Made by a program: the position numbers and the translations under genes | Shown here: positions 1,912 through 39,393 of the stretch, piece by piece | Layout: the number at the start of each line of letters is the position of its first letter | How positions within the stretch are numbered: position 1 is the first letter of the stretch | The notes under the pieces: model-generated | Databases searched by the model: none | What the model was told of the DNA's origin: nothing | The model's input: the letters and a program-made list of their open reading frames with translations, nothing else | Assembly (NCBI GenBank): GCA_020060775.1 | Contig: JAGUZN010000171.1 | Span: 1-42,263 of the forward strand | Source: Armatimonadota bacterium | GTDB taxonomy: Bacteria; Armatimonadota; Hebobacteria; CAIYQO01 | Length of the DNA: 42,263 bases | Reading direction: 5' to 3'

Positions 1912-3483
1912 ATGCTGGTTGCGAAACACCAGGACCGAGGTGAATATCACGGGTCGCGCATCCCCGCGCCGGTTTTCCAGCGCGGCATTGTTGTATTCAC
2001 GCGCGCGCGAGGCTTCTCACTCGCGGAAATTCTCGTCGTCACCATGCTCATCGTGCTCATTGTCGGCATCACGTTGCCGGTGTATTTCAACATAAGCCGC
2101 CGCCAAAAACGTGACACCTGCATCAACCAGTTGTATCAACTCGGAGTCGCCCTGGCCCAGTACCGCGAAGACTACGGCGAATATCCCGCCGCCCCCATGC
2201 CCAGCTTCCTCGAAGCCCCGCGTGCGGTCTGGGCCGGCGATTGGGTGGACGGCGCCGCCTATAAACTCGGCGAGGCCGTGAAAGCCCCCAGCGGCTGGGT
2301 CTTCCGCTGCATTGCCAACCATACCGCCTCCACCGCCAATGAGCCGGGCGTCGGCGCGAACTGGAAGGATGTCTGGGCCTTCTATCCGGAAACGCCCTTT
2401 GTGCATTCGCCGCCGGAAGGCGTCGCCTTCTTTCAGGGCGCCGGCAAAGAGCAGCAACTGATCGTCGAAGATCTATATACCGGCATCACCCCGGTGGAGT
2501 TCACCATCGAGATTATCGCACAGGGCACCCCGGATAAGTTTCAGTGGAAGAAAGACAACGGCACGTTCAGCACGCCCATTGACATTACCGGCAACTTCCA
2601 GGACCTGAGCGATGGTGTGAGGATCAAGTTCCCCGTGACTACCGGATATCAGGTGTTGGATCCCGATCCGGTGAACGGACATCCGGCAGACGCGTGGACA
2701 ATCGCGGTAGGGCTGATTCCGCAGTACTGGCGGCAGTGGGAATTGAATACCACCACGGGGCTGTACGAGTTAGTCGATTTCGAGGGGGTCAACATGCCTG
2801 ACCGTGTGCAGGCTGTCGGTAATAACTCCATGAATCGCAGCGGCCATGGCAACCTGGGGTTGGCTACGCTGTTCTACGAGTATCTGACGGACCGGCGGGA
2901 TTACCTGAAGAGCCGGCGCACGTTTCACTGCCCGACCATGCTCTCGACGGAGAAGCGCGACACCACCGCCGTGCTGGACATCCTGAGCAACATCCCGCAC
3001 TACGATAAGATGGAGCGCTCGTTTGACCCGTTGTGGAATGAATACAACACCTACGATTTCACCTACAACTATGACCAATTTTATAATGGAATCAAGAAGT
3101 TCGACGAGGCGATGGGATTCGGGGAGTTGAACACGCCGCGGCAGTTGCGTAACAAAGACTGCCCGGGCGATACGGTGGTGGCCTGGTGTTACGCCCATGA
3201 CGGCGAACTGCGCACTTTTGCCACGCCCGATCCCGCGAATCCTGATCCGCCTGACGCCTGGGCGCCGGCGAACAATGCCGAACGCACGGTGCAGGAGTTT
3301 GAACGGAGCCGCCGTCGAGAGACCTCACTGGTTCTCTGGGTGGATGGCACCGTGGGGATGATGCGGCCGACGCTGGAGCGGCGTAAAGACAATTACACGG
3401 ATCCGCTCAACCCCTCCGAGACGAATTACGCCTATTACTGGGTACCGCCCTGTCTGTACTCACCGGGAGATTGGCGCAAGTGA
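1912..3483 (+). CDS. Large prepilin-like protein, GspG/FimT/DUF1559 type, with inserted modules
   Basis: This is the first gene of the operon. The class III signal is ARG|FSLAEILVV, with Glu at +5, followed by a hydrophobic helix to about residue 60; a prepilin peptidase should cut after Gly34. The stretch CINQLYQLGVALAQYREDYGEYP matches the C-x-NLkxLGxAlxxYxxDyxxyP helix of GspG/DUF1559-like pseudopilins. Beyond this the protein is far longer than usual (523 aa against 130-300). Residues about 109-157 look like a CBM5/12-type module (aromatic residues with a GVGANWKDVW end). Residues about 189-268 are a beta module with GTPDKFQW that recurs in two other operon proteins (module B). The C-terminal half has FHCPTM and LVLWVDGTVGMM, reminiscent of DUF1559 ends. 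The start is uncertain: the track uses TTG 1864, GTG 1888 is possible, and ATG 1912 gives a 34-residue leader with only a weak Shine-Dalgarno. Confidence 0.8.
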   Translation: MLVAKHQDRGEYHGSRIPAPVFQRGIVVFTRARGFSLAEILVVTMLIVLIVGITLPVYFNISRRQKRDTCINQLYQLGVALAQYREDYGEYPAAPMPSFLEAPRAVWAGDWVDGAAYKLGEAVKAPSGWVFRCIANHTASTANEPGVGANWKDVWAFYPETPFVHSPPEGVAFFQGAGKEQQLIVEDLYTGITPVEFTIEIIAQGTPDKFQWKKDNGTFSTPIDITGNFQDLSDGVRIKFPVTTGYQVLDPDPVNGHPADAWTIAVGLIPQYWRQWELNTTTGLYELVDFEGVNMPDRVQAVGNNSMNRSGHGNLGLATLFYEYLTDRRDYLKSRRTFHCPTMLSTEKRDTTAVLDILSNIPHYDKMERSFDPLWNEYNTYDFTYNYDQFYNGIKKFDEAMGFGELNTPRQLRNKDCPGDTVVAWCYAHDGELRTFATPDPANPDPPDAWAPANNAERTVQEFERSRRRETSLVLWVDGTVGMMRPTLERRKDNYTDPLNPSETNYAYYWVPPCLYSPGDWRK

Positions 3484-6525: not shown

Positions 6526-8283
6526 ATGATGAAGCGCTATCACGGCATAACGCTGGTTGAATTATTGGTGGCCATCGGCATCACGCTGGTGGTGGTGACG
6601 CTGCTCGGCTACCCCATCATCATGGCCTTTGGCTACATCCAGAAGGCGCGCGCGCGCGCCGATGCCCTGCGCGCCGGCCAGCAGGCGGTGCAGCAACTGC
6701 AGCGCGAACTCAATACCGCCTCCTACATCTACGACCTGCCGCCCGACGGCAGCTTTGTCACCTTCCTGAAGGATGACGGCACTGATGATGATGCCACGGC
6801 TCTCGGCATGCCCATGACCATGGAGGGAGAGGCGACCCTGGTGCGCTATGCCCAGGTGCTGGACTTCCCCTGGTACGAAAACAGCGGGAACTGGGTGGCC
6901 CTCAAGCCGAACTACGCGCGCAAACTCGATACGAACCTCAACCCTGGCGATGTGTACGACGGGCACTATTCGCCCTTCCATGATCCCAAGCGACAGGGCT
7001 ATTTGCAGAATCCGTTCATCCTGGGGCGGTACGCGGAAACACTCGCTTGGGCGAGCTGCGATGTCTGGAGTATTTTGCCCACTGGCAGCGTTCCGGCGGC
7101 TCCGCTGAAAGGTGAATACCTGACGGAAACTGCGGCCCAAGAGATCGGCAATACCACGCGCTTTGAGCCACTCTGGCGCTGGTTCCGCAACAACGTGCAG
7201 TCCATCACCCCCTACGGCGACGACTGGGATGTGCCGCGCTTCCAGGCCACGCCGCTGCGCCAGCAGACCGAGACGCTGACGCCGGTCAAGGACATGGCAG
7301 GCCGCCGGCTGCACACTGTGTTCATGGCGCGCTACCCGCTGTGGGGCGGGCGCAACAGCGACCTCGACCTGATGGATGACGTCGCGTTGAACACGATTTT
7401 CGATTGTACCGAGGCCGATATACGGCAGTGGTATCCGCTCTATCCGCTGGGCGTCAATCCCTATGGCTACCAGATCAAGATCTTCGACAAGCACGGCACC
7501 CTGGTCTACGGCCCGAGCAGCAGCGGCGGCCTGCGCGCCCAACGGCACGTGATGGAGTGGCCCCCGGTGCGGCGCGCAGAGGTATCGCTATCGGATACCG
7601 ATTGGTATGACGCCTGGTATGCCGCCGTGATGCGCCAGCGCCACGAGGGCAGGGTGGTGGCCGCCCAGCCGCTGCGCATCACCCAGTTGTATCGGGTGGC
7701 CGCGGAAGATGTGAACGGCCTGTTCGCTTATCGCCTGCCCACGCCCGAGGATGGGCAATCACTCTCCGCCGACCCGGCAGTGCGCGCGCTGCAGGACCAA
7801 ATCGTCTGGGATCCCAACCTGACCTATCGCGTCACCCTGCCGGAACAGATGGAAGTCGGAAATACGGTGTATCGATTGGTCGATAAGAACCCCGTCTCCA
7901 CCGATCCCGATGATTTGCCCGGGCCCGGCGAGTATTGCCTGAAATACAAGGTGGCGGGGCTGGATGATGCGCGCAAGTATGGCATCCCCTGCAGCCGCTT
8001 TGAGCCGGACTGGGGGCTCTGCTCGCGCCTCCTGCTGTTCGGCGAAAATCCGACCTCCGCATCGATTACCAGTACCGTGTTCCCGACGTTCGATATTTGT
8101 GATTTACAGCCGGGCGACGTGGTGGTGGCCACCTATACCACCAAAGCCGTGCTGGACATCGCCCTGACGGTGAGCCGCCGCGACGGTGCGGCGAAAGAAC
8201 CCGAGCAATCGCGGCAGGATGCCACGACGGTCATGCGCGTGGAAGCGCGTAATGCCCTGAAGCGCATGCGGGAGAATCCGTAA
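6526..8283 (+). CDS. Large minor-pilin-like protein, GspJ/PilW type
   Basis: The short leader MMKRYHG is followed by ITLVELLVAIGITLVVVTLL, a prepilin cleavage site (Gly|Ile) with Glu+5 and a long hydrophobic helix. The sequence then continues as an amphipathic helix with QQAVQQLQRELNTAS, which is typical of GspJ/PilW, where the residues after the membrane helix form a long alpha-1. At 585 aa it is about twice the family's usual length, and no known domain is evident in the remaining passenger. The C-terminus ends in a charged helix (VEARNALKRMRENP). It is third in the operon, 58 bases after the PilV-like gene; the Shine-Dalgarno is weak. Placement between PilV-like and PilX-like genes supports the assignment. 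Confidence 0.8.
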   Translation: MMKRYHGITLVELLVAIGITLVVVTLLGYPIIMAFGYIQKARARADALRAGQQAVQQLQRELNTASYIYDLPPDGSFVTFLKDDGTDDDATALGMPMTMEGEATLVRYAQVLDFPWYENSGNWVALKPNYARKLDTNLNPGDVYDGHYSPFHDPKRQGYLQNPFILGRYAETLAWASCDVWSILPTGSVPAAPLKGEYLTETAAQEIGNTTRFEPLWRWFRNNVQSITPYGDDWDVPRFQATPLRQQTETLTPVKDMAGRRLHTVFMARYPLWGGRNSDLDLMDDVALNTIFDCTEADIRQWYPLYPLGVNPYGYQIKIFDKHGTLVYGPSSSGGLRAQRHVMEWPPVRRAEVSLSDTDWYDAWYAAVMRQRHEGRVVAAQPLRITQLYRVAAEDVNGLFAYRLPTPEDGQSLSADPAVRALQDQIVWDPNLTYRVTLPEQMEVGNTVYRLVDKNPVSTDPDDLPGPGEYCLKYKVAGLDDARKYGIPCSRFEPDWGLCSRLLLFGENPTSASITSTVFPTFDICDLQPGDVVVATYTTKAVLDIALTVSRRDGAAKEPEQSRQDATTVMRVEARNALKRMRENP

Positions 8284-18979: not shown

Positions 18980-21900
18980 ATGGACGCGAGACAATCAGCA
19001 ATCAGGGAAACCCTCTCTCCGCCGGGCTGGCAGCAAGTCGACCCGGGCAGGTGCGCATGGCTCATGCTGGCCCTGGCGTGCCTCCTCGCTGCTGCACTCC
19101 CGGCCGCTGCCGCGCCCGCAAACTCCCATTGGCCCATGATGGGAGGCAATGTCGCGCACACCGCCACCGCGCACAGCACGCTTCCCGTCGCACAGCCGCA
19201 AGTGAAATGGACCGCGCAACTCGGCGGATCACTGCAGTCCACCCCGGCAATGGCGCCGGGCGACACTGCCGCCATCATCGGCACGGACGATGGGCGGCTC
19301 GTTTGGCTGGATATGACCAGCGGCGCCGTATTGCGCACGATGCGCGCCTCTGCGGGCATCGCCTTCAGCGCCACCCCGCTGGTGGCAGCCGACGGCACGG
19401 TGTACGCCGCCAATGAAGACGGCCGGCTCTATTGCCGGCAGGCCGATGGTGCTGAATGGCACGTGCCGGCCAATAGCGCCTGGGGACCGCTGCTCGCTTC
19501 GCCCGTCTTCCTCGACATGGGCGGCGTCGAGTACGTGCTGGTCGCCTCAACCGATGGCCATCTATATCTGGTGAATCCCGCCACGCGCAGTGTCACGGAC
19601 TGGTTCACCGCCGGCGGCGGCATTGAGTCGACCCCGGTCATTGTAGGGAGCACGGTGGCGGCTACAGCACCGGCGAGCGCACCGATCACTACCGGCGATG
19701 CCTCGGTCACCGTCGCCCTGGCGGATCTCGCCAAATTCGCCGTGGGCGATGAACTGTTCGTCGACGGCAACCCCCTCGGCTTCATCACCGCCATCGACTC
19801 CGCCACCGGCGTCATAACAGTCAGCGGCACATCGCCGGCGGATTATCCGGTAGGCACCAATGTGACATCCGTGCCCCACCGCACCGCGTATTTCGGCTGC
19901 ACTGATGGCCATGTCTATGCGGTGAACGCCGATGCCCCCGCCCCGACGACCGCGCGCTGGGTGTATCCCTCCACCGGACAGCGTGTGGAAGGTTTCACCG
20001 CCGCGCCGGTGGTCGTCGGCAACCGGCTGTTCATCGGCGATCGCGCCGGGAAATTCTATGCCTTTGACCTGTACAGCGGGACATTGGTGAATGATCCCTC
20101 GGTGCATCCCGCCCAGATCACCGGCGAGTACACTGCCGCAGCACTGGCGGGGGGCAATACCCTGTACGCCGGCATCGGCGGCGACGGGTTGGCCAGGATC
20201 GATGTGGCCAATCCCAATAACATCACCTGGGTCAGCGATGTCATCGTGCCCACCGCCGTGCCCGCCCAGCCGGTCGGCGATGCCAGTGGCTCGGTGCTCG
20301 TCGGCGGCCGCGATGGTGCGCTGTACTGCATCAATAATGCGGGCGCGCTCGCCTGGACGTGGCCGGCGACTCCGCGCGGCCCCGCCCTGCTCGGCAGCGC
20401 CATTGTCGCCAATAATGTGAGCGAAATCGTCCTCACCACGGCGGACGGCCATGTCTTTTGCCTGGATGCTGCCGGCGTCGCGCCCGTTCCCGCTCCCGGC
20501 AGGACGGCCGCCGGCCCGTGGCCGCAGTTCCAGCGCAATAGCACGCACAACGGCGTCGCGGGTAGTGCTGCCGATGAGTTTGCGGCCATTCCCTCGCTGA
20601 CCAGCACGGCGACCACATACTTTGCGCCCAATAAACTGCGCTGGTCGCTGAACACCACTGGATCGGTGGTCTCATCCGCCGCGGTGGTGCGCACCACCGA
20701 TACGGTGCGCAAAACCGTCCTCACCGCCGCGATGGCGATTGGCGACACGACACTCAGCGTCTTCAGCACCGATGACCTGTGCGTGGGTGAGATCCTCATT
20801 GTCGGCGCCGACTACCTCGGGCCGATCCGTGAGATCGACACCACCGCAAAAAGCGTCACCATCACCTATCCGGCCACCCAGGCGCATGCCGTCAATGACG
20901 AAGTGCAGGTGAGCCTCTATCGCCGCGATACGCTTGTCGGCGCGCGCGATGCGCTCGACGGCGCGGTGCTGGCGGGCGCGATACAGATCACGGTGAAGCA
21001 TGGCGGCTGGTTTACCCCCGGCATGCGCGTACGGTTGAGCGATCGCACCAGCCCGGGCACGCAAACCGAAGTCGTCAGCATTACCAATGTCGCCGGCAAT
21101 GTGCTCACCGTAGAATCCGAAGCCACCACCACGCAGCAGCTCAAGTATAGCTACGGCGATAACTCCTACGTCTTTGCCAATGTGGATGATACCCCGTCCC
21201 GCCTTCATGTGGATCACTACGAACGCTTCCTGGTGGGCGATCGGGTTGCCATCGGGGACGAGAAGGTGCACATTACCGCCATCAATGGCGCGGCCATCGA
21301 CATCACCCCGAGCCTGGAAGGCGAATACGCTAATGCCACGGTGCTGTGGGTGGGCGAGCCGGGACGGTGGGCCGGGTACATCGGCTCGGATGACGGCATA
21401 CTGCGCTCGTTTGACCCGGATACCGGGGTGACCTTCTGGACGAATTCCGTCGCCTCGGCATTGGGCCCGGTGCGCGGCACGCCGGTGATGGATACCCGGT
21501 TGGGCCGTCTCTACGTCACCAGTCTCTCCGGCCGAGTGCTCGCCTTCGCGCAACACGGGCAACTGCTCTGGGCGTATCCGGACATCACTGCAGAAGGCTT
21601 GAGCCCCATCAGCGGCTCGCCGGTGCTCGATGAGGCCGGCAATGTGTACTTCGCCACGCAGGGCGGCTACATCTATAAATTGCTGCCCGACGGTTCGCTC
21701 GCCCGGAAATCGACTGACCCCACGGTCGTCTGCATCTACCCGCAATCGCCCGACCCAGCACTCGCGCCGATTGAGGGCGGGCTGGCGCTGTACCAGCCGA
21801 CCACCACGCTGCAGCGCGTGGTCTTCGGCACGCGTGACGGTAAACTGCTGATCCTGGACAGCGATCTGAATCGCGTCTGGACGTATCCTGACGACATCAC

Positions 21901-24900
21901 CGTCAACACGCCCACCGTGGGCGCCATCACAGCCGCCCCGGTGATCGGGCCCGACGGCACCATTTATATTAGTGATCACACCGGCAAGGTCCATGCGATC
22001 TACGAAGTTCTGAATCCCACGCCGCCTCCCGCGATTCTGCAAATCACCAGCCGCTGGATTGATGATGGCACTGGAGCGCCGTATCAGTTCCAGGCGGACG
22101 GCGCTGTCACCGCGGCGGCGGCGGTCGCCAATGGCGTGCTCTATGTCGGCGATGACACCGGCCGCATCTATGCCGTGACCGGGACGACGAAATCGGTAAT
22201 CGAGGCCAATATCAAATCACTCCCGCTCGACGGCGGGGTCACCGGATCGTTGACGCTGGATGCGGCGGGCAACCTGTTGGTCGGCACGGCGCGCGGCAAT
22301 GTCTGCTGCCTGGGCAATGTCGACGAATGGGGGGCGCCGAAACGCTACGGCGCCGGCAGCAGTACGGCCGCCGCCGGGGCGACCCTGGGTACGCCCTGGG
22401 AAGATGCGACAACCACCTACGACCCGAACACCCAGACGGTGACGCTGGTCGGGCGCATCAAACCAACATTCACGCAGGACGACGGCTCTCCGCTCATCGC
22501 CTACCGTGCGGTGTGGGGAGGACAGGCGGCGCTGTTCGGCTTCCGCAAGGCTGATTTGCCGGTCAATCCCGCCAGCCCCGGCTACATCTACGTAGCGCTC
22601 AATGATGCCGGTCAGATGGCTATTGCACAGGGGGTGAACACGGTGGCGGCGGTGCCGTTGCCGGTGGATACCCTGCCGCAATACGGTGTCGATGTCATCC
22701 TCACCGTAACCGCGCTGGGCGGCGGCGCGGCGCGGGCGACCGCCTACTATCGCGCGCCGGATGATGCCGGTAATTTCGTCGGCGCGTTCACCCCCATCGG
22801 CACGGTCGTGTTGCCGACCGGCGTGGGCGATGATCTGGTGCTGCCCACCCAACTCTATCCCTTCGTGCTGGCGACCGATTTCGTGAATCCCGCGCCGGGA
22901 TTCTCGGTGACGGTCGATCCGATCACGCTCTACCAGGGCAACCCGCCCTCCAGTTGGTCCAACCCGCAGGGCTATGGCACGGCGACGTCGACAGTGGCCG
23001 CCGGCGCTTCGCTCGGCGAGGTCTGGTCGGACATGTCGCAGGCGTATGATCCGAACACGCAGACCATCACCCTGCAGGGTAAAATCGTCCCGCAGTTCAC
23101 CGATGATGTCGGCAATCCGCTGACAGCGTACCATGCGTTCTGGCATGGCCAGTCGGCGCTGCTGGGGCTGGGCACCGGCTCGCCGATCGACCCCAATACG
23201 CCCGGGTATGTCTATGCCGCGCTGAATGATGCCGGTCAGGTCGCCATTGCCTGCGGCGTCTCCAAGGTGACTGCCATCAGTCTCCCCGCCGGGAAGAACC
23301 CCGCATTCGGCGTGGAAATCAAGTTAACGATCGAGCCCACCACGCCGGGCAAGGCCCGCGCCACCGCCTACTATCGCGCGCCGGATGCCGGCGGAACCTT
23401 CTCCGGCAACTTTGTGCAAATCGGCCAGTACGATCTGCCGACCATGGAGGGGCTTGATACCACGCTGCCCACCGCGCTCTATCCCTTCATGCAAGCGCGC
23501 GATGCCGTGCCGCCGCAGCCGGGATTCACGGCGCGAGTGGAACAGGTCACCGTCAGCGCCGATGCGACGTTGATTGAAGGCATGGTCTCCAATAGCCCGG
23601 GCATCCGCTGGGTGTGGAACGCCCACCGCCATGGCGGTTCACCCGCCATGCTCCCCTTCCGCACCGCTCCCACCACCTGGATGGGCGGGCTGGTCATTGC
23701 CGGCTGTGATAACGGCACGATCTATGCCATCGGCCCCAAAGGCTCTGCGTGGGATGACGTAGCACAACCCGGTGACAAAGTCCCGCAGACCGCGGGAAGC
23801 TGGCCCTTCTTCCATCGCGACGCGCGCCGGCAGGGCAGTATGCAACAGGCCGCCATGGGCGAGGTGGGGGCACTGCAGCCTTCCTTGCGCTGGTTCAAAT
23901 CACATGACAAGCGCCTGTTAAGCTCACCGGTCATATCGTCATATACGGCCAATCATACGCCGATCGTATGGCAAGGCAGTGATGACGGCTACCTCTATGG
24001 GCGTGATGCCTCCACCGGTGAACTGATCACGCAATATCCGACGGCGGATAACGAGCCGATCGCCCCCATCCGCGCGACGCCTGCCGTCCACACTGGCGGC
24101 GGTTCGGATACGCTGGGCAGTGTGGCCGTGGCCGGCATGGGCGGGCGCCTCTACCTGCTGGATCACAACGCCACCATGCTGGCGGATACCGGCAGCGCCA
24201 CCACCGGCCTGGGTAAGCTGCTTGGCAGCTTCTACGCCTCCCCGGTCGTACGGCAGGATCGCGATGGCGCGCAGGAGGCGGTTACCGTCTACGCTGCCAC
24301 GGTGGACAGCCTGCACACGACTGGCAACTACACGTTCACCAGTGGCGCTGGTACGAATACCGCGATGACCGACGGCAACACCACCACGCAGGCCACCGGC
24401 GATAACGCGCTCAAAATCAACTACCAGATGCCGCACACAGCGCTGGTCACCCGCGTGCGCATCCGGACGGCGAACGCTGGCGAGTTATGGTGCCACCGCG
24501 GCACCGATGCCTCGCTGGTCGGCGTCTACGATGGCAACACTGCGCCGCGCTACCTGCACGTTGACCTGAATCGCTATGCCGACAGGGTGGAGTGGCGCAA
24601 CCTGAGCACCGATGGGACCATTGCCGTGCAGGCGATGGAGGTGTACACTGCCGGCGCGGAACAAGCCGCGCCCCCTGCCGTCACCTATCGCGACGGCGAT
24701 GATCCCGCGGAGCCGGCATTGACCCCGCCCTTCTCCTATACCGGGAGGGTGCTCATCGCCGAGCTGGATACCCAGCCGACCTATGTCTACCGCGCTACCA
24801 TCACCACCCAGGACGCCGGCATCCTGCGCGTCGTCGGGGCGAATGGGCAGCAGTACGATTGGTGGAAGTTTACCAGTAAAACTGCGCCGGAGCCGGTCGA

Positions 24901-27900
24901 CATCGTCATCGACCGGTACGTGACGCGCCTGGTCTGGGAAGTCACCGAGGCCGTTCCCACCGCGCGTACGGCGGGTGATTTCCAACTGTCAGAAAAAGAT
25001 CTTGCGTCGGGCGGCGGCCGCGTCTACGCCTTCCAGTTCAAACAGAATGCCGGCGTATGGACGACGACGCTGCTCTGGCAATACCCCGTTGCCGGCGATC
25101 CGGCGCTGGCGCCGATCTCCAGCTCGCCGGCCGTGGTCACCGGCGCGGAGCGGGCGAACGATATTCTGTATGTCGCCACCGAAGGCGGCCAGATGCTTGC
25201 GCTCAGCGGTGATGGCGCCAAGCTGGCGGAAGCTCAACTCTTCAACAAAGTGCTGGCTTCGCCGGTGCTGGTGGATACCGTCAGTGGTGCGTCCGTCTTT
25301 GTCGCCGATATGGGCGGGGTTGCCCACCTCTTCGATGCGAATCTGCACGAGATGAGCGGTTGGCCGGCGCCATTAGCCGGCGCCTGCCCGAACGCCGCCG
25401 CGCTCACCGCCGAACGCCAGGCCGTGCTCACCACCGATAACGGCGTCGTCTACTACATAAATCTCGGTGCGCGCGACTACGGCACGAACACCGCACCCGT
25501 ATCAGCCGGTCAGCCCATGGGCGCAGCCTGGCCGCCGCAGGCGCCGACATACGATGCCGATCCGAGCGAAAACACGCTGGCGCTCATCGGCCGCATCAAG
25601 CCCAATTTCACGCTGGACGACGGCACGCCGCTCACCGCCTACCGCACAACCTGGGGCGGGCAGAATCTGCTCTTCGGCTTCCGCAAGCGCGATGACGGCA
25701 CCGCCAGCCCCGCTTCGCCAGGCTACGTCTACGCCTTTGTCAATGACATCGGCCAGTTAGGCATCGGCAGCGGCATGAGCACCGCCACCGTCGGCAAACT
25801 GCCCGCCGGCAGCCGGCCCGACCTGGGCCTGGAACTGGCGCTGGTGCTGCGCCCCATCAGTGCGAGCAGCGCAGCCGCCACGGTCTACTACCGGCTGCCG
25901 AATGCCGATGGCAATTATGCCGGCGTGTTTACCCAGGCCGGGTCGCTCAGTCTGCCGACCGGCGCTGCCGGCAACACCGAGCTGCCCACCGGCGTCTATC
26001 CCTTCATGCTGGGCACGGACATGGCGCCGGCACAGCCAGGCTATACACCGGCCGGCGAACAAATCACCCTGTACACCGGCAGTAACACCACGCTTCCGCG
26101 CGATGGCGCCATTGTCGGACCGCTGGTGACCGGCCTCGAACAGGTGCCGACCAACGTCTACTCATCGCCGGTCATTGATTCGCTGGGGCGCGTCTTCGTC
26201 GGCAGCGAGGCCGGTGAACTGTACTGTCTCAAAGCGGATGGCGAGTGGACCGCAGATGCGAGCATTGTGCAGTGGCGCTACCGCCCTGATCGTTCCACGG
26301 TCGCGACGGCCTTACACAGCGATGTCGATCCGGGAACGAGCAACTTGCCGGTCGTTTCCACCGAAGGCTTCCGCTCGGGTGATGTGGTACAGATCACGCG
26401 GCGGGACGGGAGCCTGCCTGAAGATCTGGGCACGGTGCTCTCCGTTGTGCCGCCCCCTGATCCCATTGGAACCAAGTTGACAGTGGCTGCGCCCGAGGCC
26501 GATCCCACCATTATCCACGTCGCCTCCACGGCCGGCATGGCTGTCGGCGCCACCGTTTCCATCCTGGCGCTGTACGACATCACCGACCCTACGCATATCC
26601 CGCAACCCTTGCGCGTGGTGGGCAAGATCGTCCGCGTGGTCGATGCCACCACGCTGCAGCTGGATACGGCCGTGGAGCACATCAAGCTGGATACGGTGCT
26701 GCCGGATACCGATCAATACGCGGTCAATTCACTCGTGTTCGTTTCTCAGGGCTACGGCTACATCACCGTTTCGAAAAAGACCAGTACCCAGCGACTCGCC
26801 GGCGACATGCTGCGGGTAGTTCGCGGCAACGCGCTGCCCATGCGCACCTCGCCGTCCATTGGCCCGGCCTCCACCGTCTATGTCGGCGCCAGCGATGGCA
26901 TCCTCTATGCCGTGGGTCCCGTCGGCCCGGCCGGGTTCCCCGAGCCGATCCCCACGGAACAGGGCAAGCAGACGGTGTCGATCTGGTGGACCTTCCATCA
27001 CGATAACCAGCGCACCGGCTTCGCCGAACGCCCCGCCGCGCCGACGAAAGACCTGCGTTGGTACCGCGACACCGGCAGCACGCTGGAGAGCTCGCCCGCC
27101 ATCGGCTATGCCGATGACACCGCCACCATGGGCATCCTCTATGTCGGCACCTCCGATGAGCCGGATAAGCGCGGCTTCCCGCAGCAGCGCGGATCGTTGA
27201 TGGCCTGGGATGCCTCCGATGGCCGGCTCTTCTGGCGCTTTGATGATGGCGGCAATATGGGCAAGGTGCTCACCTCGCCGGCGGTATTTGTCCACGAGTA
27301 TAGCGATCAGTATGCCCAGGAGCAGCGAGACGAGATCGTCGTGTTTGGGACGATGGAGATGCCGGTGAGTGTGCGCGACGGCCTGCTCGCCGTGGAACTC
27401 GCCTCCGGCCTGGTGAAGGATCACATCGCGGTGGGAGACGAGGTGGTGGCCATCCAGGTCGTCGATGCCTCGAGATTCCGCGCCGACCTTGAAGTCTTCA
27501 TCACCGATGCGGCGACCAGCGCTAACTTTGAGTCCTACGGCATCATCGCCGCCATCGATGGCGATTGGCTCGTGCTCAGCCGTTCGCGCGTCGCCGTGCG
27601 CGCCCACGCCTTTGGTTCGGCCGTGCGCACGCAGACCAGCCAGCAGGGGCGCGTCTACGCGGTTGACCGCTTCGGGCAACTGCGTTGGAAGTTCCCGGCC
27701 GAAGGGGCGACCGCCTCCGAGCGCATCGGGCCGGTGCGCTCCTCCCCGGTCATCGATATGGACGGCAACACCTACTTCGGCACCGATGACGGCGTCATCT
27801 ACGCGCTGGATAGCGAAGGGAGCCTGAAATGGTCCTACTTCGTCCCGCGCGTGAGCAGTGCCGAGTCGACCATGCAGGTCGTCTCCCCGCCCACGCTGGA

Positions 27901-30900
27901 TATCACCGGCAAGCGGCTGTTCATCGGCATCAGCGTGCCGCCTGATGGCTCCGAGCCACTGCCCGCCGGCCAGAACGTCGGCTACCTGCTCGCGCTCGAT
28001 ACCCTGACGTCGGACAGCAGCCGGAGATTGCTCTGGAAAGTCCAACTCGACGGCCCAATCACCGCCGCTCCGCTGTTTACCTCGGTGAACGGCTATGAAC
28101 GCCTTTTCGTCGGATCGGATGATCTGTATCCCACCGACGGCTTGACGGGCGTATTCTATTACATCGATGCCGCCGATGGCACGGTCATCGACTGGATCAA
28201 TAACATCGGGCCTATCACCGGCACGGCCGCCGCGATTCCGGAAACCAATACCGCCGTCTTCACCCGGCCGGATGCCAACTGGATTGATGCCACGCGCACC
28301 GTCGTCACCCTGGCCAGCAACGATGGACTGCTGGCCGGACATCGCGTGCTCTTCCGCGCGCAAAATGGGGCGGAAGTCGAAAGCGTCATTCGCGAGGTGA
28401 ACGCCGACGGGCAGCATATCACCCTGGAAACCGCCCTGCCGGATAATATCTACCTGCACATGCGCACGAACGAACACACCGTGTTCGTTGGAGATCTCAC
28501 CGGCAAGCTCTATGCGCTGGCCATCGACCTGAATACCGATAAATTCTGGCGTGATGCCACCAATACTATCGTCCCACTGGGCATGTGGAACGTGGGCGGG
28601 CCCATCCGCACGTCGCCGGCGATCAGCCTGGAGGAGAACTACCTCAATAGTGGAAAGCGGGCGTACGGCGTCTACTTCGGATCGAATGACCGCTTCATTT
28701 ATGCCTTGCGCGCCTTCCCTATCGTACAGTTAGGTGTCGCCGGGCAGGAAGCCACATTGGCCTACCGCTGGGAGAAGAATGTGCGCGACCGCGTCTACGG
28801 TTCTCCGGTGATCGGCCTGAAGACCGCGGATGCCGATTTCAGCAAGGCGATCGTCTATCAGGTGTCTCGCGATCAATATATCTACGCCTTTGGCGACCAG
28901 GTGGGCTATGAAGGAGATCCCGTTGATCCCGACGGGCCCGATGACGACTACGTGCCGCCCGATGACGATCCGGCCAATGCCTTTATCCCCTCGAACATCG
29001 CGGTGGATAAAACGATCAGCATCGCCGAGAATGATCCAACTTCTGGGGCGCCCAACGCCGATAAGTCATGGCTGAAGCTGGTGGTGACGGTGAAGAACGT
29101 CGGCCGCGGCGTCGTGAAGAAAGTGAGCGTCGTTGATAGCCTGCCGGAAAATCTGGTGCTGGCCGCGCCGCCCTACTACGATCCGGCATCGCTGAAGATC
29201 GATGAACAGATCGCCGTCTCACCAGCCGCACCCTGGGAGATCACCTATTCCTCGAAGGACGCGGATGGGTTTGTCTTACTGCCCAACATCGGCGATCCGA
29301 CTCAGCCGATATCCCAGCACACACGCAGCTTCACCTTTTATATCAAGGTGGCGCCGTCGGGGCGCGGCTATGTGGACGGCGAAACTTTCTTCCGCGTCTC
29401 GAATAATGCGGCGGTCTACACGAATCCTGCGTTGAACGATCCCAGTTGGAATGCGGTGAAGACGCGTGTTGGCGATAGAATCTACCTGCAGCTCCGCAAG
29501 CACCCGATGCCGCTGGGCGAGGATGTGAGCGCCGGGCAGAACCATTTGCTCGCCGACGCCGAAACGTACGAGGGTAGCCTGGACCGCCCGCTGCCCATCC
29601 AGACGCGCAAGGATACCTCACTGCAGAACGACTGGACGGATGTCTTCAAAGTGCGCCTCTACTACAACGGTCGGCGCGATCCGGTCACCGGTCGGCTCTC
29701 ACAGGATGGCGAGGACCTGCGCACCTTCTCGCCGTGGAATCAGATCGACGTGCGCACTGGCCGGCCGCTGATGTTCAAGGTGGAAACGCCGGAGATGCGC
29801 GGCAATGGTGGACAAATTACCGGCGGTTGGGAGATGAAGACCTACGCCATGGTCAAAAGCGACCCGCAATACGCTGATGGATACGGCGTCTCCGGCGTCC
29901 GCTATCGGCTGCTGCCCAGCGCAGTGAAACGCTTTGACCGCTCCGGCCTGCCGGATGGCGTTGTCGATTCCGCGATAACCCCGTACGGATGGCGCGTCAC
30001 CATCCAGCAAGGCCGCATGCAGATCAACAAAGAAATCGCCGAGTGGGGCCCGGAACTGGGCGTCGAAGAGCGGGTGAAAGTCGCACAGATCACCAGCGCA
30101 GCCGGCAGTATCCCGGCAGGCGGCACACGCAGCTTTACCTTCGCCGTTGAGCCGAGTTCTGCTCCGCAGCGCCTGAAGGCTGATCAGATCGTGGTCATCA
30201 TCAATCCCGACCAATCGGACTTTGAGGCTCGGGTGCACAGTGTGGATGGGGCTACCGGCGCCGTCGTACTGGCGAATACCGGAGCGAGCGCGTACACCGT
30301 CCAGCAAAACGCCGTGATCTACGCCGAGTGGTCGCCGGACTACATCATGCAAAGCCCGGTGGTCGCGACATTTGATGGGAATCCTGTGAAGACGCTGCAG
30401 CTTGGCAGTCACACCGCGCCAAGTCATCTCGCCGCCTCCGGCACCATGTCGGTGACGAACTTTGCCAACTGGGGCGTGACGCCGTACTACCCATGGTATC
30501 GCTATCTCACCACGCCGGTAGACCTGCGTACGACAGCCGTGAAAGACTGGAACGCTAGCCTCGGTGTTGCGCTTGGGAAAGCACCGACAATCGGCACGGA
30601 ATGGGATGGCTTCCGTTACGATCCGTACCGGGAACATTACCTCGGCATGACCCAGGACGTGCTCGACCTGCCTGTTGGCTCCGGGTTGCGGGCGAATCAG
30701 GGCATTGATCTGCATCTGACACGGCGCGTGCCGCCGCACCAGCCGCAGTCCGGCGACGGCGAATACCGCACGCGCACCGAGTTTGCCCTCTCGGATGATG
30801 GGGGAACGTGGTACGTTGAAACGAATGCGACTCCAGGATACCAGGCCGGCGTTGAGCCCGTACTGGATAACCGGAACCCCAATATCAATCGTAACGATCC

Positions 30901-33900
30901 GCAATACCAGGGTAAGGTGCTCTTTGGCGATCGGCTGTATCTCGACGTGAATGTCGATGGACGTTACGATGCGCCGGAACCCTTCTCGGACCGTAACGGC
31001 AATGGCGTGTACGATAACGGCGAGGTCTTTGCTGATCGCAACGGCAATATGACCTACGATGCTGGTGACCCGCTGGTCGTCGCCGGGGTATTCGACACGC
31101 GCATCTTCATGGACGCCAATGGCAATCGCCAGTGGGACCCGGGTGAATCGCTCTATAATTATTTTGATTATTCGGCGAAACCTGATCCTGACTATGCCTC
31201 GCTCCATGCCGATAACTGGCCGGAATACTTTGCCACCACACTCGGAGTATCCGCGTCTGCCGATACCCAGTTGTCAACAAAAGTCGTCGAGCTGGGGCGG
31301 TCGAGCGGCGCATCTCCCACACGCACACCAGCAGAAGAACCCATATTGCGCAATCGCGGCAATGTGACCTTGACGCGAGGAGGCCTGAGCGTCTACTCGG
31401 ACCTGTATACCTCGGCGAGTCCCACGGCGGTCTGGAACAATACGCTCATGCGCACCGGCGCATCGGCGGTGAAATACCAGACGGACACGGTCAGCCTGCG
31501 ACCATGGGAAGAGGTGCAGCATTACCCGTACGGTGGAACCGATATCCTCAACGAGTTCCCGCTCTATAAGAGCCCGGCCGGCGAGGAACGCCACTTCGGC
31601 GTGGCATTGTCGCTGCCCTACCAGATCGGCTATCGCCAACCCACCGGCACCTACACCGGCTCGCTGGTGGTCACCGCGGATGATAATGCGGATGCCTTCA
31701 CCGTCAAGGCCGGCATGGCCAGCCTGCGCGTGGGCGAACGTCGCTTAGCGCAGGTCGTCGAGAGTGCCGGCACGCTGCCCGAGTTTGACAACGCCTACGA
31801 GGATGCACGCGTGGCTGCCACTACCGGGTGGACGAATTACCTCACCGGCGTGGAAAGCTGGCCGGCGGCGGTGGTGCTGCCCGGCATGCCCAATACAAAC
31901 CGCGACGACCTCGCCGTCTTCGTGGCGAGTAACACCCCGCTGATCGCCGCCGACGTGCGTGAACGCCCGGCGAACACCCCGGTCGGCGATATTTTCGGAC
32001 CGGACCTGTGGCCGAACGGCGAACCATATGTCGATGCCAATGGCAATCAGCAATATGATACGGGTGAAAGCTACACCGACATCAATGGCAACGGTCGCCG
32101 CGATGCCGAAACGGACACGGTCATCTGGTTCAGGCGCGCTAAGCATCTGGTGGCAAGTCCAAGCAACATCGTCGATAACGGCGACGGAACCTACACTGTC
32201 ACGGTTTCCGGTAATTTTGTCGATCAGATCAGAGCAACGGGCACCCACACCAGTGATCTCGTTGTGCTCCGTCCACGCCCGCAACTGGGCGAGGTCGATA
32301 CGTCCATCTGGTATGGCCAGGCGCAGAGTATCAATGTCGCTGCCGACACGGTTACTGTCCGGGCGCTGTCTTCATGGAACTGGACGCTCACGGCCAGTGA
32401 AACGACGGTGGAGGTGACCGCCCATCCGTGGGTGCCGGTGCTGCCGCAATCCGATATCGAAACGTTGCGTGCGCTGCTGGCTGATCCGGCCGATGCCGCC
32501 CATGCCGGTCCCGCGCCCGTCCGCTGCGATCAGCTCAGCGCCACCATGGACCATCAAACCGGCAAGACCTGGCTGGTGTGGACGGTCTCCGCGGCGCGCC
32601 GCCTGACCGTGAAGGGACAGGTGCAGTACCGCCCGGTCTCCATGCTCGCGTATAAGGAAGTCGATCAGGCCAACCCGCAGGCGAATCGTCTGTATTGGAT
32701 GGCGCCGCCGGATACCCCGGTGGCCGAGGGAGGCTACTCCCCGCTGGAGGTGCGTGAGAAGCCCGTGCTGCTCCCGCGAGTGCAAAATCGTACGATCATC
32801 ATGTACGAGGGATTGAAGTCAGGCACGACCGGGCTGTACTACGCCAATACGCATACCGACTATTCCGATATCAAACGCCTGGCGCTGATCACCCAGGCGG
32901 TCGCCAACAGCACAACCATTCGGGTGAACAACACCGATGCGATGGCCATCGGCATGAACGTCTACATCGACGGCTGGGGACCGGTGACGATCCTCGCCGT
33001 GGACCCGGCCGCCAGGACCATCACCGTCGATATCCCGGTCACCGTGGCGGGTGGCACGCAGATCTGGCCGCTCTGGACGCCGGATATCGCCCTTGACGTG
33101 ATCAACTGGTCGTTCAGCAGCGCCGGACGCCCACAGGTCTTTGCCGATTCCATCAACGGCATGCCGCCCAATAACTGGGAAAATGTGAATCTCGTCTTCC
33201 AGGCGAAAGATGCGATCAGCGGCAATACCGACCTGTACTATGCCCGCCTGAATGCCGGCAACGCGTTGAAGTCGCTCACCTGCCAGTCGCTGGTGTTGCC
33301 GGAATCGAATCAGACGACACGACTGCTGACGGAAACGCTCGCGCCCAACACGGAGAACACGCTCTTCACCAGCCGCCATCGCGCCTGGGGGAATGGCGAT
33401 GTGGATCCGCTCGATAACCTGCCCAAGCTCTGGGTGAAGATCAATCACGGGGAAAACTATCACCCCGTGCTGATCGATGATACGAAAACCGAGTACGAAG
33501 TCACGATCGTCCAGAACGATCAGCAGTATCGGCTGCGCATCGATCCGTATCGCGGCGTTATTCGCGTGTCGCGCGGCAATGTGACCAGCCTGATTATACG
33601 CGGCATGCCGCGCGTGCAGCGGCTGACGACTAATGCGGCGGCCGACGTAAATCCGATGGTCTCGGTCGAGCGCTGGCGCTATGTGCGGGATAATGGCACT
33701 GCCGACTACGGTCAGAATGATTACCTGGCGACCACGCCGCGGCTGTGGCTGTACTGGTCGCGACGGCATGAGGACGGCCTGGGCACGCGCGCCTACTACC
33801 GCACCTTCCGGCTGCATAACATCGGTACAACAGCCGCGCCAGTCGTGACCGGGCTGGATGCCGAAGTGCGCGATGAGCACACGCCATTCAACCTCAACGA

Positions 33901-34171
33901 TCCGGAGCTGAACGTGAACATGCCCGAGCGCATGCTGCCCATCGAAGTGTTGAGCCAGGACGGAGCTTCGCTCTTCGTTACGCGCATGTCGGCATCGGTC
34001 AACTCGCCAGAGGCCGGATTGTGGGTGCTCTCCACCGCGTCGCGCAACCGTGAGTGGCTGTATCCAGGACAGGAAGGTACGTCGTCCCAGCCCAGGCAGC
34101 GTCCCACCCTGCACGACCTCTTCCTGCAGGTCATCAATGTGCCGGTGCCCGACAACGCCCCGGTGCCGTAG
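18980..34171 (+). CDS. 5063-aa secreted multi-propeller protein, PilY1-like by context
   Basis: The track extends this frame to 18773, but that overlaps the previous gene; ATG 18980 has GGGAGAG 6 bases upstream and gives a signal peptide (WLMLALACLLAAALPAAAA). Four similar motifs open PQQ-type beta-propeller blocks: WPMMGGNVAHT (about 19130), WPQFQRNSTHNG (20518), WPFFHRDARRQG (23802) and WWTFHHDNQRTG (26986). Blades read GxVYxGxxDGxxYALDxxTG. Inserted are about ten module A units, three module C domains and two discoidin-like beta segments (about 24300-24990). After an acidic linker (DPDGPDDDYVPPDDD) comes a DUF11-like domain at about 29000-29420, then DxNxNGxxD calcium-type loops at about 30943-31149 and 32033-32113. 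No C-terminal anchor is seen. The place after PilV/W/X-like genes, propellers and calcium loops recall PilY1, a calcium-binding tip adhesin; there is no clear vWA domain. The role is inference. Confidence 0.75.
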   Translation: MDARQSAIRETLSPPGWQQVDPGRCAWLMLALACLLAAALPAAAAPANSHWPMMGGNVAHTATAHSTLPVAQPQVKWTAQLGGSLQSTPAMAPGDTAAIIGTDDGRLVWLDMTSGAVLRTMRASAGIAFSATPLVAADGTVYAANEDGRLYCRQADGAEWHVPANSAWGPLLASPVFLDMGGVEYVLVASTDGHLYLVNPATRSVTDWFTAGGGIESTPVIVGSTVAATAPASAPITTGDASVTVALADLAKFAVGDELFVDGNPLGFITAIDSATGVITVSGTSPADYPVGTNVTSVPHRTAYFGCTDGHVYAVNADAPAPTTARWVYPSTGQRVEGFTAAPVVVGNRLFIGDRAGKFYAFDLYSGTLVNDPSVHPAQITGEYTAAALAGGNTLYAGIGGDGLARIDVANPNNITWVSDVIVPTAVPAQPVGDASGSVLVGGRDGALYCINNAGALAWTWPATPRGPALLGSAIVANNVSEIVLTTADGHVFCLDAAGVAPVPAPGRTAAGPWPQFQRNSTHNGVAGSAADEFAAIPSLTSTATTYFAPNKLRWSLNTTGSVVSSAAVVRTTDTVRKTVLTAAMAIGDTTLSVFSTDDLCVGEILIVGADYLGPIREIDTTAKSVTITYPATQAHAVNDEVQVSLYRRDTLVGARDALDGAVLAGAIQITVKHGGWFTPGMRVRLSDRTSPGTQTEVVSITNVAGNVLTVESEATTTQQLKYSYGDNSYVFANVDDTPSRLHVDHYERFLVGDRVAIGDEKVHITAINGAAIDITPSLEGEYANATVLWVGEPGRWAGYIGSDDGILRSFDPDTGVTFWTNSVASALGPVRGTPVMDTRLGRLYVTSLSGRVLAFAQHGQLLWAYPDITAEGLSPISGSPVLDEAGNVYFATQGGYIYKLLPDGSLARKSTDPTVVCIYPQSPDPALAPIEGGLALYQPTTTLQRVVFGTRDGKLLILDSDLNRVWTYPDDITVNTPTVGAITAAPVIGPDGTIYISDHTGKVHAIYEVLNPTPPPAILQITSRWIDDGTGAPYQFQADGAVTAAAAVANGVLYVGDDTGRIYAVTGTTKSVIEANIKSLPLDGGVTGSLTLDAAGNLLVGTARGNVCCLGNVDEWGAPKRYGAGSSTAAAGATLGTPWEDATTTYDPNTQTVTLVGRIKPTFTQDDGSPLIAYRAVWGGQAALFGFRKADLPVNPASPGYIYVALNDAGQMAIAQGVNTVAAVPLPVDTLPQYGVDVILTVTALGGGAARATAYYRAPDDAGNFVGAFTPIGTVVLPTGVGDDLVLPTQLYPFVLATDFVNPAPGFSVTVDPITLYQGNPPSSWSNPQGYGTATSTVAAGASLGEVWSDMSQAYDPNTQTITLQGKIVPQFTDDVGNPLTAYHAFWHGQSALLGLGTGSPIDPNTPGYVYAALNDAGQVAIACGVSKVTAISLPAGKNPAFGVEIKLTIEPTTPGKARATAYYRAPDAGGTFSGNFVQIGQYDLPTMEGLDTTLPTALYPFMQARDAVPPQPGFTARVEQVTVSADATLIEGMVSNSPGIRWVWNAHRHGGSPAMLPFRTAPTTWMGGLVIAGCDNGTIYAIGPKGSAWDDVAQPGDKVPQTAGSWPFFHRDARRQGSMQQAAMGEVGALQPSLRWFKSHDKRLLSSPVISSYTANHTPIVWQGSDDGYLYGRDASTGELITQYPTADNEPIAPIRATPAVHTGGGSDTLGSVAVAGMGGRLYLLDHNATMLADTGSATTGLGKLLGSFYASPVVRQDRDGAQEAVTVYAATVDSLHTTGNYTFTSGAGTNTAMTDGNTTTQATGDNALKINYQMPHTALVTRVRIRTANAGELWCHRGTDASLVGVYDGNTAPRYLHVDLNRYADRVEWRNLSTDGTIAVQAMEVYTAGAEQAAPPAVTYRDGDDPAEPALTPPFSYTGRVLIAELDTQPTYVYRATITTQDAGILRVVGANGQQYDWWKFTSKTAPEPVDIVIDRYVTRLVWEVTEAVPTARTAGDFQLSEKDLASGGGRVYAFQFKQNAGVWTTTLLWQYPVAGDPALAPISSSPAVVTGAERANDILYVATEGGQMLALSGDGAKLAEAQLFNKVLASPVLVDTVSGASVFVADMGGVAHLFDANLHEMSGWPAPLAGACPNAAALTAERQAVLTTDNGVVYYINLGARDYGTNTAPVSAGQPMGAAWPPQAPTYDADPSENTLALIGRIKPNFTLDDGTPLTAYRTTWGGQNLLFGFRKRDDGTASPASPGYVYAFVNDIGQLGIGSGMSTATVGKLPAGSRPDLGLELALVLRPISASSAAATVYYRLPNADGNYAGVFTQAGSLSLPTGAAGNTELPTGVYPFMLGTDMAPAQPGYTPAGEQITLYTGSNTTLPRDGAIVGPLVTGLEQVPTNVYSSPVIDSLGRVFVGSEAGELYCLKADGEWTADASIVQWRYRPDRSTVATALHSDVDPGTSNLPVVSTEGFRSGDVVQITRRDGSLPEDLGTVLSVVPPPDPIGTKLTVAAPEADPTIIHVASTAGMAVGATVSILALYDITDPTHIPQPLRVVGKIVRVVDATTLQLDTAVEHIKLDTVLPDTDQYAVNSLVFVSQGYGYITVSKKTSTQRLAGDMLRVVRGNALPMRTSPSIGPASTVYVGASDGILYAVGPVGPAGFPEPIPTEQGKQTVSIWWTFHHDNQRTGFAERPAAPTKDLRWYRDTGSTLESSPAIGYADDTATMGILYVGTSDEPDKRGFPQQRGSLMAWDASDGRLFWRFDDGGNMGKVLTSPAVFVHEYSDQYAQEQRDEIVVFGTMEMPVSVRDGLLAVELASGLVKDHIAVGDEVVAIQVVDASRFRADLEVFITDAATSANFESYGIIAAIDGDWLVLSRSRVAVRAHAFGSAVRTQTSQQGRVYAVDRFGQLRWKFPAEGATASERIGPVRSSPVIDMDGNTYFGTDDGVIYALDSEGSLKWSYFVPRVSSAESTMQVVSPPTLDITGKRLFIGISVPPDGSEPLPAGQNVGYLLALDTLTSDSSRRLLWKVQLDGPITAAPLFTSVNGYERLFVGSDDLYPTDGLTGVFYYIDAADGTVIDWINNIGPITGTAAAIPETNTAVFTRPDANWIDATRTVVTLASNDGLLAGHRVLFRAQNGAEVESVIREVNADGQHITLETALPDNIYLHMRTNEHTVFVGDLTGKLYALAIDLNTDKFWRDATNTIVPLGMWNVGGPIRTSPAISLEENYLNSGKRAYGVYFGSNDRFIYALRAFPIVQLGVAGQEATLAYRWEKNVRDRVYGSPVIGLKTADADFSKAIVYQVSRDQYIYAFGDQVGYEGDPVDPDGPDDDYVPPDDDPANAFIPSNIAVDKTISIAENDPTSGAPNADKSWLKLVVTVKNVGRGVVKKVSVVDSLPENLVLAAPPYYDPASLKIDEQIAVSPAAPWEITYSSKDADGFVLLPNIGDPTQPISQHTRSFTFYIKVAPSGRGYVDGETFFRVSNNAAVYTNPALNDPSWNAVKTRVGDRIYLQLRKHPMPLGEDVSAGQNHLLADAETYEGSLDRPLPIQTRKDTSLQNDWTDVFKVRLYYNGRRDPVTGRLSQDGEDLRTFSPWNQIDVRTGRPLMFKVETPEMRGNGGQITGGWEMKTYAMVKSDPQYADGYGVSGVRYRLLPSAVKRFDRSGLPDGVVDSAITPYGWRVTIQQGRMQINKEIAEWGPELGVEERVKVAQITSAAGSIPAGGTRSFTFAVEPSSAPQRLKADQIVVIINPDQSDFEARVHSVDGATGAVVLANTGASAYTVQQNAVIYAEWSPDYIMQSPVVATFDGNPVKTLQLGSHTAPSHLAASGTMSVTNFANWGVTPYYPWYRYLTTPVDLRTTAVKDWNASLGVALGKAPTIGTEWDGFRYDPYREHYLGMTQDVLDLPVGSGLRANQGIDLHLTRRVPPHQPQSGDGEYRTRTEFALSDDGGTWYVETNATPGYQAGVEPVLDNRNPNINRNDPQYQGKVLFGDRLYLDVNVDGRYDAPEPFSDRNGNGVYDNGEVFADRNGNMTYDAGDPLVVAGVFDTRIFMDANGNRQWDPGESLYNYFDYSAKPDPDYASLHADNWPEYFATTLGVSASADTQLSTKVVELGRSSGASPTRTPAEEPILRNRGNVTLTRGGLSVYSDLYTSASPTAVWNNTLMRTGASAVKYQTDTVSLRPWEEVQHYPYGGTDILNEFPLYKSPAGEERHFGVALSLPYQIGYRQPTGTYTGSLVVTADDNADAFTVKAGMASLRVGERRLAQVVESAGTLPEFDNAYEDARVAATTGWTNYLTGVESWPAAVVLPGMPNTNRDDLAVFVASNTPLIAADVRERPANTPVGDIFGPDLWPNGEPYVDANGNQQYDTGESYTDINGNGRRDAETDTVIWFRRAKHLVASPSNIVDNGDGTYTVTVSGNFVDQIRATGTHTSDLVVLRPRPQLGEVDTSIWYGQAQSINVAADTVTVRALSSWNWTLTASETTVEVTAHPWVPVLPQSDIETLRALLADPADAAHAGPAPVRCDQLSATMDHQTGKTWLVWTVSAARRLTVKGQVQYRPVSMLAYKEVDQANPQANRLYWMAPPDTPVAEGGYSPLEVREKPVLLPRVQNRTIIMYEGLKSGTTGLYYANTHTDYSDIKRLALITQAVANSTTIRVNNTDAMAIGMNVYIDGWGPVTILAVDPAARTITVDIPVTVAGGTQIWPLWTPDIALDVINWSFSSAGRPQVFADSINGMPPNNWENVNLVFQAKDAISGNTDLYYARLNAGNALKSLTCQSLVLPESNQTTRLLTETLAPNTENTLFTSRHRAWGNGDVDPLDNLPKLWVKINHGENYHPVLIDDTKTEYEVTIVQNDQQYRLRIDPYRGVIRVSRGNVTSLIIRGMPRVQRLTTNAAADVNPMVSVERWRYVRDNGTADYGQNDYLATTPRLWLYWSRRHEDGLGTRAYYRTFRLHNIGTTAAPVVTGLDAEVRDEHTPFNLNDPELNVNMPERMLPIEVLSQDGASLFVTRMSASVNSPEAGLWVLSTASRNREWLYPGQEGTSSQPRQRPTLHDLFLQVINVPVPDNAPVP
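22346..22938 (+). repeat. Module C, copy 1 (about 200 aa)
   Basis: First of three homologous domains in the 5063-aa protein. Shared landmarks in order are a YG start, YDPNTQTVTL, a GGQAALFGFRK segment, PGYIYVALNDAGQMAI, ATAYYRAPD and LPTQLYPFV. It interrupts a propeller block and is followed directly by copy 2. The fold is not recognised; a jelly-roll or concanavalin-like sandwich is possible. Confidence 0.8.
22971..23560 (+). repeat. Module C, copy 2 (about 200 aa)
   Basis: Direct neighbour of copy 1. Matching landmarks are YDPNTQTITL, HGQSALLGLG, PGYVYAALNDAGQVAIACG, ATAYYRAPD and LPTALYPFM. A DNA stretch encoding TAYYRAPD is nearly identical in copies 1 and 2, suggesting these two split most recently. 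Confidence 0.8.
25478..26080 (+). repeat. Module C, copy 3 (about 200 aa)
   Basis: A remote copy in the next propeller block. Matching landmarks are GGQNLLFGFRK, PGYVYAFVNDIGQLGIGSG, ATVYYRLPN and LPTGVYPFM. It differs more from copies 1 and 2 than they do from each other. Confidence 0.75.
30943..31149 (+). other. Calcium-loop-like repeats (DxNxNGxxDxGE), cluster 1
   Basis: Four loops lie in close sequence in the C-terminal part of the giant protein: DVNVDGRYDAPE, DRNGNGVYDNGE, DRNGNMTYDAGD and DANGNRQWDPGE. The spacing of acidic and Asn/Gly residues matches EF-hand or dockerin-like calcium loops. A structural calcium role is inferred from the residues. Confidence 0.65.
32033..32113 (+). other. 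Calcium-loop-like repeats, cluster 2
   Basis: Two further loops, DANGNQQYDTGE and DINGNGRRDAET, sit about 300 residues after cluster 1, in the same protein and with the same loop pattern. Confidence 0.65.
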
Positions 34172-38084: not shown

Positions 38085-38087
38085 TTC

Positions 38088-39191: not shown

Positions 39192-39317
39192 AAGCTCCAT
39201 CTGGTCGGAGCGCCCGCGCCTGCCGTGAGCCGCGTCGAACGGTCCAGCCGGCCCCCAACGGATCAGCGTATATGGTTGCTGCCGGCGGTTCATCCGAAAA
39301 GCCTGCTGGCCCATATT

Positions 39318-39344
39318 CCCCTCCCCTGTCGCAACGGGGGAGGG
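39318..39344. repeat. CT-rich palindrome, copy 1
   Basis: CCCCTCCCCTGTCGCAACGGGGGAGGG: arms of C-rich and G-rich sequence around TGTCGCAAC. Part of a two-unit set with the copy starting at 39367. Confidence 0.6.
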
Positions 39345-39366
39345 TAGGGTGGGGGTCTTCCGCATT

Positions 39367-39393
39367 CCCTCCCCCTGTCGCAACGGGGGGAGG
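39367..39393. repeat. CT-rich palindrome, copy 2
   Basis: CCCTCCCCCTGTCGCAACGGGGGGAGG: the same core TGTCGCAAC as copy 1 and nearly the same arms, 22 bases downstream. Likely a dispersed intergenic repeat or a terminator pair for ispG and the GH2 gene. Confidence 0.6.

Follow-up and report, generated by a model that had tools for sequence, protein, structure and literature searches.

The locus

The window, the whole 42,263-nucleotide stretch that was analysed (contig JAGUZN010000171.1 of the Armatimonadota assembly GCA_020060775.1, forward strand), contains a minor-pilin operon that consists of three pilins, a PilX-like pilin, an exported partner protein of 2517 residues and, as its last gene, a giant exported protein of 5063 residues (Table 1). 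The 15.2-kb frame without a stop that the preliminary description of this DNA reported is real, and runs uninterrupted from an ATG at 18980 to the stop at 34171. The open frame extends upstream as far as a GTG at 18773. The ATG is the likely start, with GGGAGAG directly 5' of it and a signal peptide directly 3'. This signal peptide is the only strong hydrophobic segment near either terminus, and a hydropathy scan gave no indication of a C-terminal membrane anchor.

Genes upstream of the giant have prepilin N-termini, detected with N_methyl for pilins 2 and 3 and through GspG/ComGE models for pilin 1. The PilX-like protein begins GQALIMAVLVM, which by eye lacks Glu5 and resembles GspK. The partner belongs to a phylum-wide family with no named role; in its relatives, a DUF4159 stretch close to the N-terminus is followed by NHL/PQQ-like stretches. 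A complete pilMNO-pilQ-pilB set is present in the source genome on a contig other than that of the giant operon (contig C7: PilM, 7e-61; PilN; PilO; secretin, 1.2e-40; pilus ATPase). The preliminary description recognised the propeller blocks of the giant and missed its position at the end of a minor-pilin operon with a phylum-wide conserved gene order. Further downstream (37011-42119) the window encodes an M50 site-2-type protease with a PDZ domain and GcpE (IspG), with a family-2 glycoside hydrolase on the opposite strand.

Table 1. Positions of the operon genes and of features within the giant protein, in window coordinates
Feature	Position (nt)	Residues (aa)	Strand	Basis or remark
Pilin 1	1864..3483		+	best family matches GspG/ComGE-type prepilin
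Pilin 2, PilV-like prepilin	3471..6467		+	N_methyl 4.1e-07; TIGR02523 PilV 1.4e-05, below cut-off
Pilin 3, PilW/GspJ/HpsC-like prepilin	6526..8283		+	N_methyl 4e-05; HpsC 7.3e-06, below cut-off
PilX/GspK-like large pilin, 978 aa	8311..11247		+	phylum-wide operon marker
Exported partner, 2517 aa	11329..18882		+	holds five 'VGD' modules
Giant four-propeller exported protein	18980..34171		+	open frame; sister-genus orthologue (G001) intact, 4878 aa
Signal peptide	18980..19117	1-46	+	hydropathy scan
Propeller block 1	19130..20515	51-512	+	opening WPMMGGNVAHT; Pfam, blade HMM, PDB sequence matches
'VGD' beta module 1 of 8 (~65 aa)	19640..19864		+	
Propeller block 2	20519..23779	514-1600	+	opening WPQFQRNSTHN; blade HMM
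'VGD' modules 2-4, tandem	20708..21349	577-640, 652-723, 731-790	+	
Module A copy 1	22340..23014	1121-1345	+	windowed self-comparison
Module A copy 2	23015..23623	1346-1548	+	~55% identical to copy 1
Propeller block 3	23801..26944	1608-2655	+	opening WPFFHRDARRQ; blade HMM
Module A copy 3	25517..26155	2180-2392	+	windowed self-comparison
'VGD' module 5	26303..26497	2442-2506	+	
Propeller block 4	26984..28909	2669-3310	+	opening WWTFHHDNQRT; blade HMM, AlphaFold2, Foldseek
'VGD' module 6, weak	27446..27562	2823-2861	+	
'VGD' module 7, weak	28286..28438	3103-3153	+	
Calcium-loop-like motif DRNGNGVYDNGE	30989..31018	4004	+	regex
Calcium-loop-like motif, second copy	32078	4367	+	regex
'VGD' module 8	32873..33067	4632-4696	+	sole well-modelled part of C-terminal region
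C-terminal signature	34019..34153	5014-5058	+	alignment of 22 giants

Propeller blocks

The first ~3300 of the 5063 residues make up the propeller part of the giant, and the ~1750 residues beyond differ in kind. Four copies of the opening motif W-x5-[ND]-x2-[HR]-[TNQ] occur, at residues 51, 514, 1608 and 2669, against a mean of 0.124 and a maximum of two in 1000 shuffled versions of the sequence. All four openings had been noticed previously, in a pattern (W-x4-[NRD]-x3-...) that fits just two of them. The accompanying proposal that each opens a PQQ-like propeller block is upheld by Pfam, sequence matches in the PDB, a blade HMM and a structure model of block 4. Pfam assigns Beta-prop_ACSF4 (1.4e-56) and PQQ_2 (6.4e-25) to the first half of the protein and the same families, more weakly, to the second. 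Among solved structures, the closest in sequence are 3HXJ, a PQQ-like propeller, together with designed propellers of the same repeat type. The iterated blade HMM, which was seeded from the giant and its sister and is not independent of the proteins it describes, assigns about eight blades to every block, with weak scores for some.

Structure prediction, which had been suggested as a check, was run on block 4 alone among the four blocks and yielded a propeller. The AlphaFold2 model, built with two orthologues, has a pTM of 0.65 and a pLDDT of 70-90 over much of the blade region. Foldseek matches it to PQQ-like and BamB propellers with E-values down to 6.8e-16; among full-size eight-bladed matches the best target-normalised TM-score is 0.73, to v31Bagel8, with a poor global superposition. 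The giant is thus a member of the PQQ/BamB-like beta-propeller superfamily. Identity with BamB itself was considered and rejected, as TIGR03300 scores 85.4 bits against a cut-off of 285.2.

Inserted modules

The blocks had been described as each decorated with different inserts. This does not hold: the inserts are mostly of two recurring types, one of ~200 residues present three times (module A) and one of ~65 residues present eight times (the 'VGD' beta module). The repeats are masked when the whole protein is compared with itself by BLAST and are revealed by windowed self-comparison. The three copies of module A share about 46-55% identity. Two of them lie upstream of the final blade of block 2 (residues 1559-1591), and the third is found inside block 3 together with a discoidin-like stretch recognised by eye (about residues 1780-1890). 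Each of two sister genomes has a single copy, which in G001 sits elsewhere in block 2, and the module was not found in the 58 other relatives in which it was sought. In addition to the eight 'VGD' modules of the giant, five more occur in the 2517-residue partner. Modules have thus been copied inside these adjacent genes as well as from one to the other.

C-terminal region

The ~1750 residues after the propellers comprise a DUF11-like stretch (assigned by eye), two calcium-loop-like motifs whose sites are 48.6% identical over 35 residues, and a C-terminal domain. The last ~50 residues can be aligned across 22 giants of the phylum as [VIL]W[LVM][FL]W[ST]STR...D[LVI][YF]..[TA][LFIV].P, which reads LWVLSTASR...HDLFLQVINVP in the window. 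This signature is also kept in giants with no detectable propeller blade. The N-terminal part of the giants is variable, and four of the sampled families have no detectable propeller; many single-propeller members show the N-terminal opening motif (e.g. WPTFRHDANRTG and FPMFRRDPQRTG). Motifs of the form D-x-[ND]-[GN]-N-G, candidate calcium loops, are found in many but not all giants, and in that of the window they lie outside the propellers. One 1776-residue member with no detectable propeller (L034:8446-13776, genome G028) contains ten or more motifs resembling calcium loops (D-x-NGNG-x-x-D), most of which fall within the first 650 residues. A search for PDB relatives with the profile of the C-terminal domain found none, and a search of genome contigs with the C-terminal alignment found nothing beyond the two family members already known. 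The structure model of this domain has a pLDDT of 33.7, so a docking surface is not visible in it.

Orthologues and age of the four-block array

A genome of the same family and another genus (G001) encodes an intact, collinear orthologue of 4878 residues in a single frame, with 36-45% identity and with all four opening motifs conserved (WPMMGGTAGHTG, WPQFQGDATHPG, WPLAHRDPRRTG and WYSFHRDNQRTG). When the propeller blocks are placed in a tree, each of the four pairs with its own counterpart in the other genus with 100% bootstrap support, which indicates that the four-propeller state predates the split of these genera. The deep branching order of the blocks has a support of just 76 and is not resolved. 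In the neighbouring family f3, the proteins of G006 (2399 residues) and G004 (1957 residues) each contain a single eight-bladed propeller. A third orthologue (L036 of G002, JAKIYB010000007.1) is broken into two frames, of 1779 and 706 residues, on a contig with a coverage of about 2, and this split is probably a sequencing frameshift.

The broken frame in that low-coverage contig, and the fact that the source genome is a draft of 440 contigs, could be taken to mean that the long frame is an artefact in which several smaller genes have been fused. This is extremely improbable given that an independent genome has one frame with four blocks in the same order and that the block-by-block pairing in the tree has full support. 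Long tandem DNA repeats were also sought within the frame and none were found. Collapse of the frame during assembly is ruled out by the intact collinear orthologue, and by sequence comparison the four-block array is an old one.

Conservation across Armatimonadota

The PilX-like gene was found in 272 of 291 Armatimonadota genomes. Gene order was counted, with mechanically called ORFs, in about 40 chosen loci spread over the families rather than in all 272 genomes: of 36 informative loci, 33 have the partner directly after the PilX-like gene, 20 of 23 then have a large protein (1786 to at least 3358 residues) after the partner, and nine, from eight families, go on to PilM. The member in the giant's slot in G025 has ~3600 residues. 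At the G230 locus the run extends to PilM (PilM_2, 1.7e-55), PilN/PilO-like proteins and a secretin (1.6e-38). The giant of the window appears to be an enlarged version of a protein family that adjoins pilus genes across the phylum.

The arrangement is not universal. The giant is missing at this place in L067, L078 and L080. At L070, L074 and L075, which belong to families f2 and f4 (same class), the PilX-like gene is immediately followed by PilM and neither large gene is present at this place, a case in which the putative tip was lost naturally or moved elsewhere. Since these families keep PilX and PilM with neither large protein at this site, the large proteins do not seem to be essential to every pilus of the phylum.

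Relation to known systems

In the known operon order fimU-pilV-pilW-pilX-pilY1 (PMC13190605), the last gene encodes a protein with a conserved C-terminus and a variable N-terminus (PMC13190605). In Myxococcus, PilY1 and four minor pilins form the priming complex and tip, with the C-terminal domain of PilY1 near the pilins, predicted strand complementation to PilX, and the N-terminal part at the extreme tip (PMC7541494, PMC13190605). The giant shares several features with these PilY1/PilC type IVa tip adhesins. It is exported and propeller-bearing, follows a PilX-like pilin in a minor-pilin operon (with the large partner gene in between), and has a conserved C-terminal end and a variable N-terminal part; its calcium-loop-like motifs may be a further similarity. 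In contrast, its propellers are N-terminal and PQQ/BamB-like, whereas the single propeller that defines PilY1 is C-terminal; it has four of them in 5063 residues, an additional large exported partner and no match to PF05567. PF05567 was not matched by hmmscan in the giant, the partner or the relatives scanned. The same search of the source genome and 291 genomes of the phylum was also empty, but control genomes were likewise unmatched, and absence of PilY1 from the whole phylum is not claimed. By sequence, the giant is not a PilY1 (PF05567) homologue. The hint of PilY1 in the preliminary description thus pointed to the right role and fails as a statement of sequence membership.

The blades resemble BamB and other PQQ-like propellers in sequence and fold (PF13360, PF13570, PDB 3HXJ), but the giant differs from BamB in having four tandem propellers with inserts and ~1750 further residues. 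A large tip-located pilin with an inserted beta-solenoid, ComZ, is known from Thermus (PMC6561018). What the two have in common, if the tip reading holds, is that a minor-pilin locus gained its tip function through the addition of a large beta domain; however, ComZ is itself a pilin, while the giant has a signal peptide and no pilin N-terminus. Searches of the literature for Armatimonadota together with PilY1, the Verru_Chthon cassette or giant propeller adhesins on pili returned nothing on this system.

Possible function

Gene position, the export signal and the combination of a conserved C-terminal end with a variable N-terminal part suggest that the giant does the same job as PilY1 with an unrelated sequence. 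The order of pilin, PilV-like, PilW-like and PilX-like proteins, partner and giant matches that of fimU-pilV-pilW-pilX-pilY1. Counting against a place at the tip are the separation of the operon from pilM in the window's family, the failure of PF05567 to match, and families f2 and f4, with neither large protein at this place. On balance it is rather probable that the giant corresponds, in Armatimonadota, to the type IV pilus tip/priming protein, occupying the slot of PilY1 and enlarged in one family.

The chief competing reading is a secreted scaffold: the pilins would form a short type II-like pseudopilus with the partner and the giant as its secreted substrates, the giant serving in a matrix or surface layer. 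The pilins do also match models of GspG, GspI and GspJ as well as HpsC, a secretion pseudopilin, each of the two large proteins carries a signal peptide and lacks a C-terminal anchor, and the absence of linkage to pilM in the window's family fits here as well. This explanation is nonetheless unlikely, because in many families PilM, PilN/O-like proteins and a secretin, the assembly set of type IV pili, come next, the set in the source genome is of the PilM/N/O/Q type, and a conserved C-terminal end better fits an assembled component than a free substrate. Given their PQQ-type fold, the propellers could also act as quinoprotein enzymes, using bound PQQ to oxidise substrates on the cell surface. 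However, PF01011, the model for catalytic PQQ dehydrogenases, is unmatched in the giant, the best matches in sequence and fold are non-enzymatic PQQ-like propellers, designed derivatives and BamB, and large inserts between blades interrupt the blocks. PQQ enzyme activity is accordingly unlikely, and a quinoprotein role for the propellers very improbable.

The best reading remains an Armatimonadota-specific tip/priming protein, putatively located at the tip, in which one propeller was expanded to four in the window's family. The signal peptide would export the giant, and its conserved C-terminal end, with the conserved C-terminal hairpin as the candidate docking element, may attach to the PilX-like minor pilin as well as to the 2517-residue partner. 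The complex of these three proteins would then prime and cap the pilus. The four tandem eight-bladed propellers and their beta modules would project past the tip as a non-enzymatic binding surface, a reach-and-bind extension that is quadrupled in the window's family and might mediate adhesion. Its size also counts against the tip reading: at ~540 kDa, such a protein would be well above known tip proteins and would have to traverse or occupy the secretin. A broader proposal, possible though more doubtful, is that in Armatimonadota two very large exported proteins, specific to the phylum, form the tip in place of PilY1, with a business end that evolves by copying of propellers and by shuttling of small modules within and between both genes.

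As far as the literature searched shows, the type IV pilus tip of this entire, mostly uncultured phylum is undescribed. If the tip reading is true, PilY1 has been replaced in Armatimonadota by an unrelated large protein in the same operon position, whose conserved C-terminal end may dock, and the giant of the window is among the largest known pilus-tip proteins. Growth of the tip would have proceeded from one propeller to four before the genera split, with the inserted modules multiplying afterwards. Similar arrangements may extend further, as pilin 3 (6526-8283) has sub-threshold matches to cyanobacterial HpsC and to protein C of the Verru_Chthon cassette, which suggests related pilin cassettes in other phyla.
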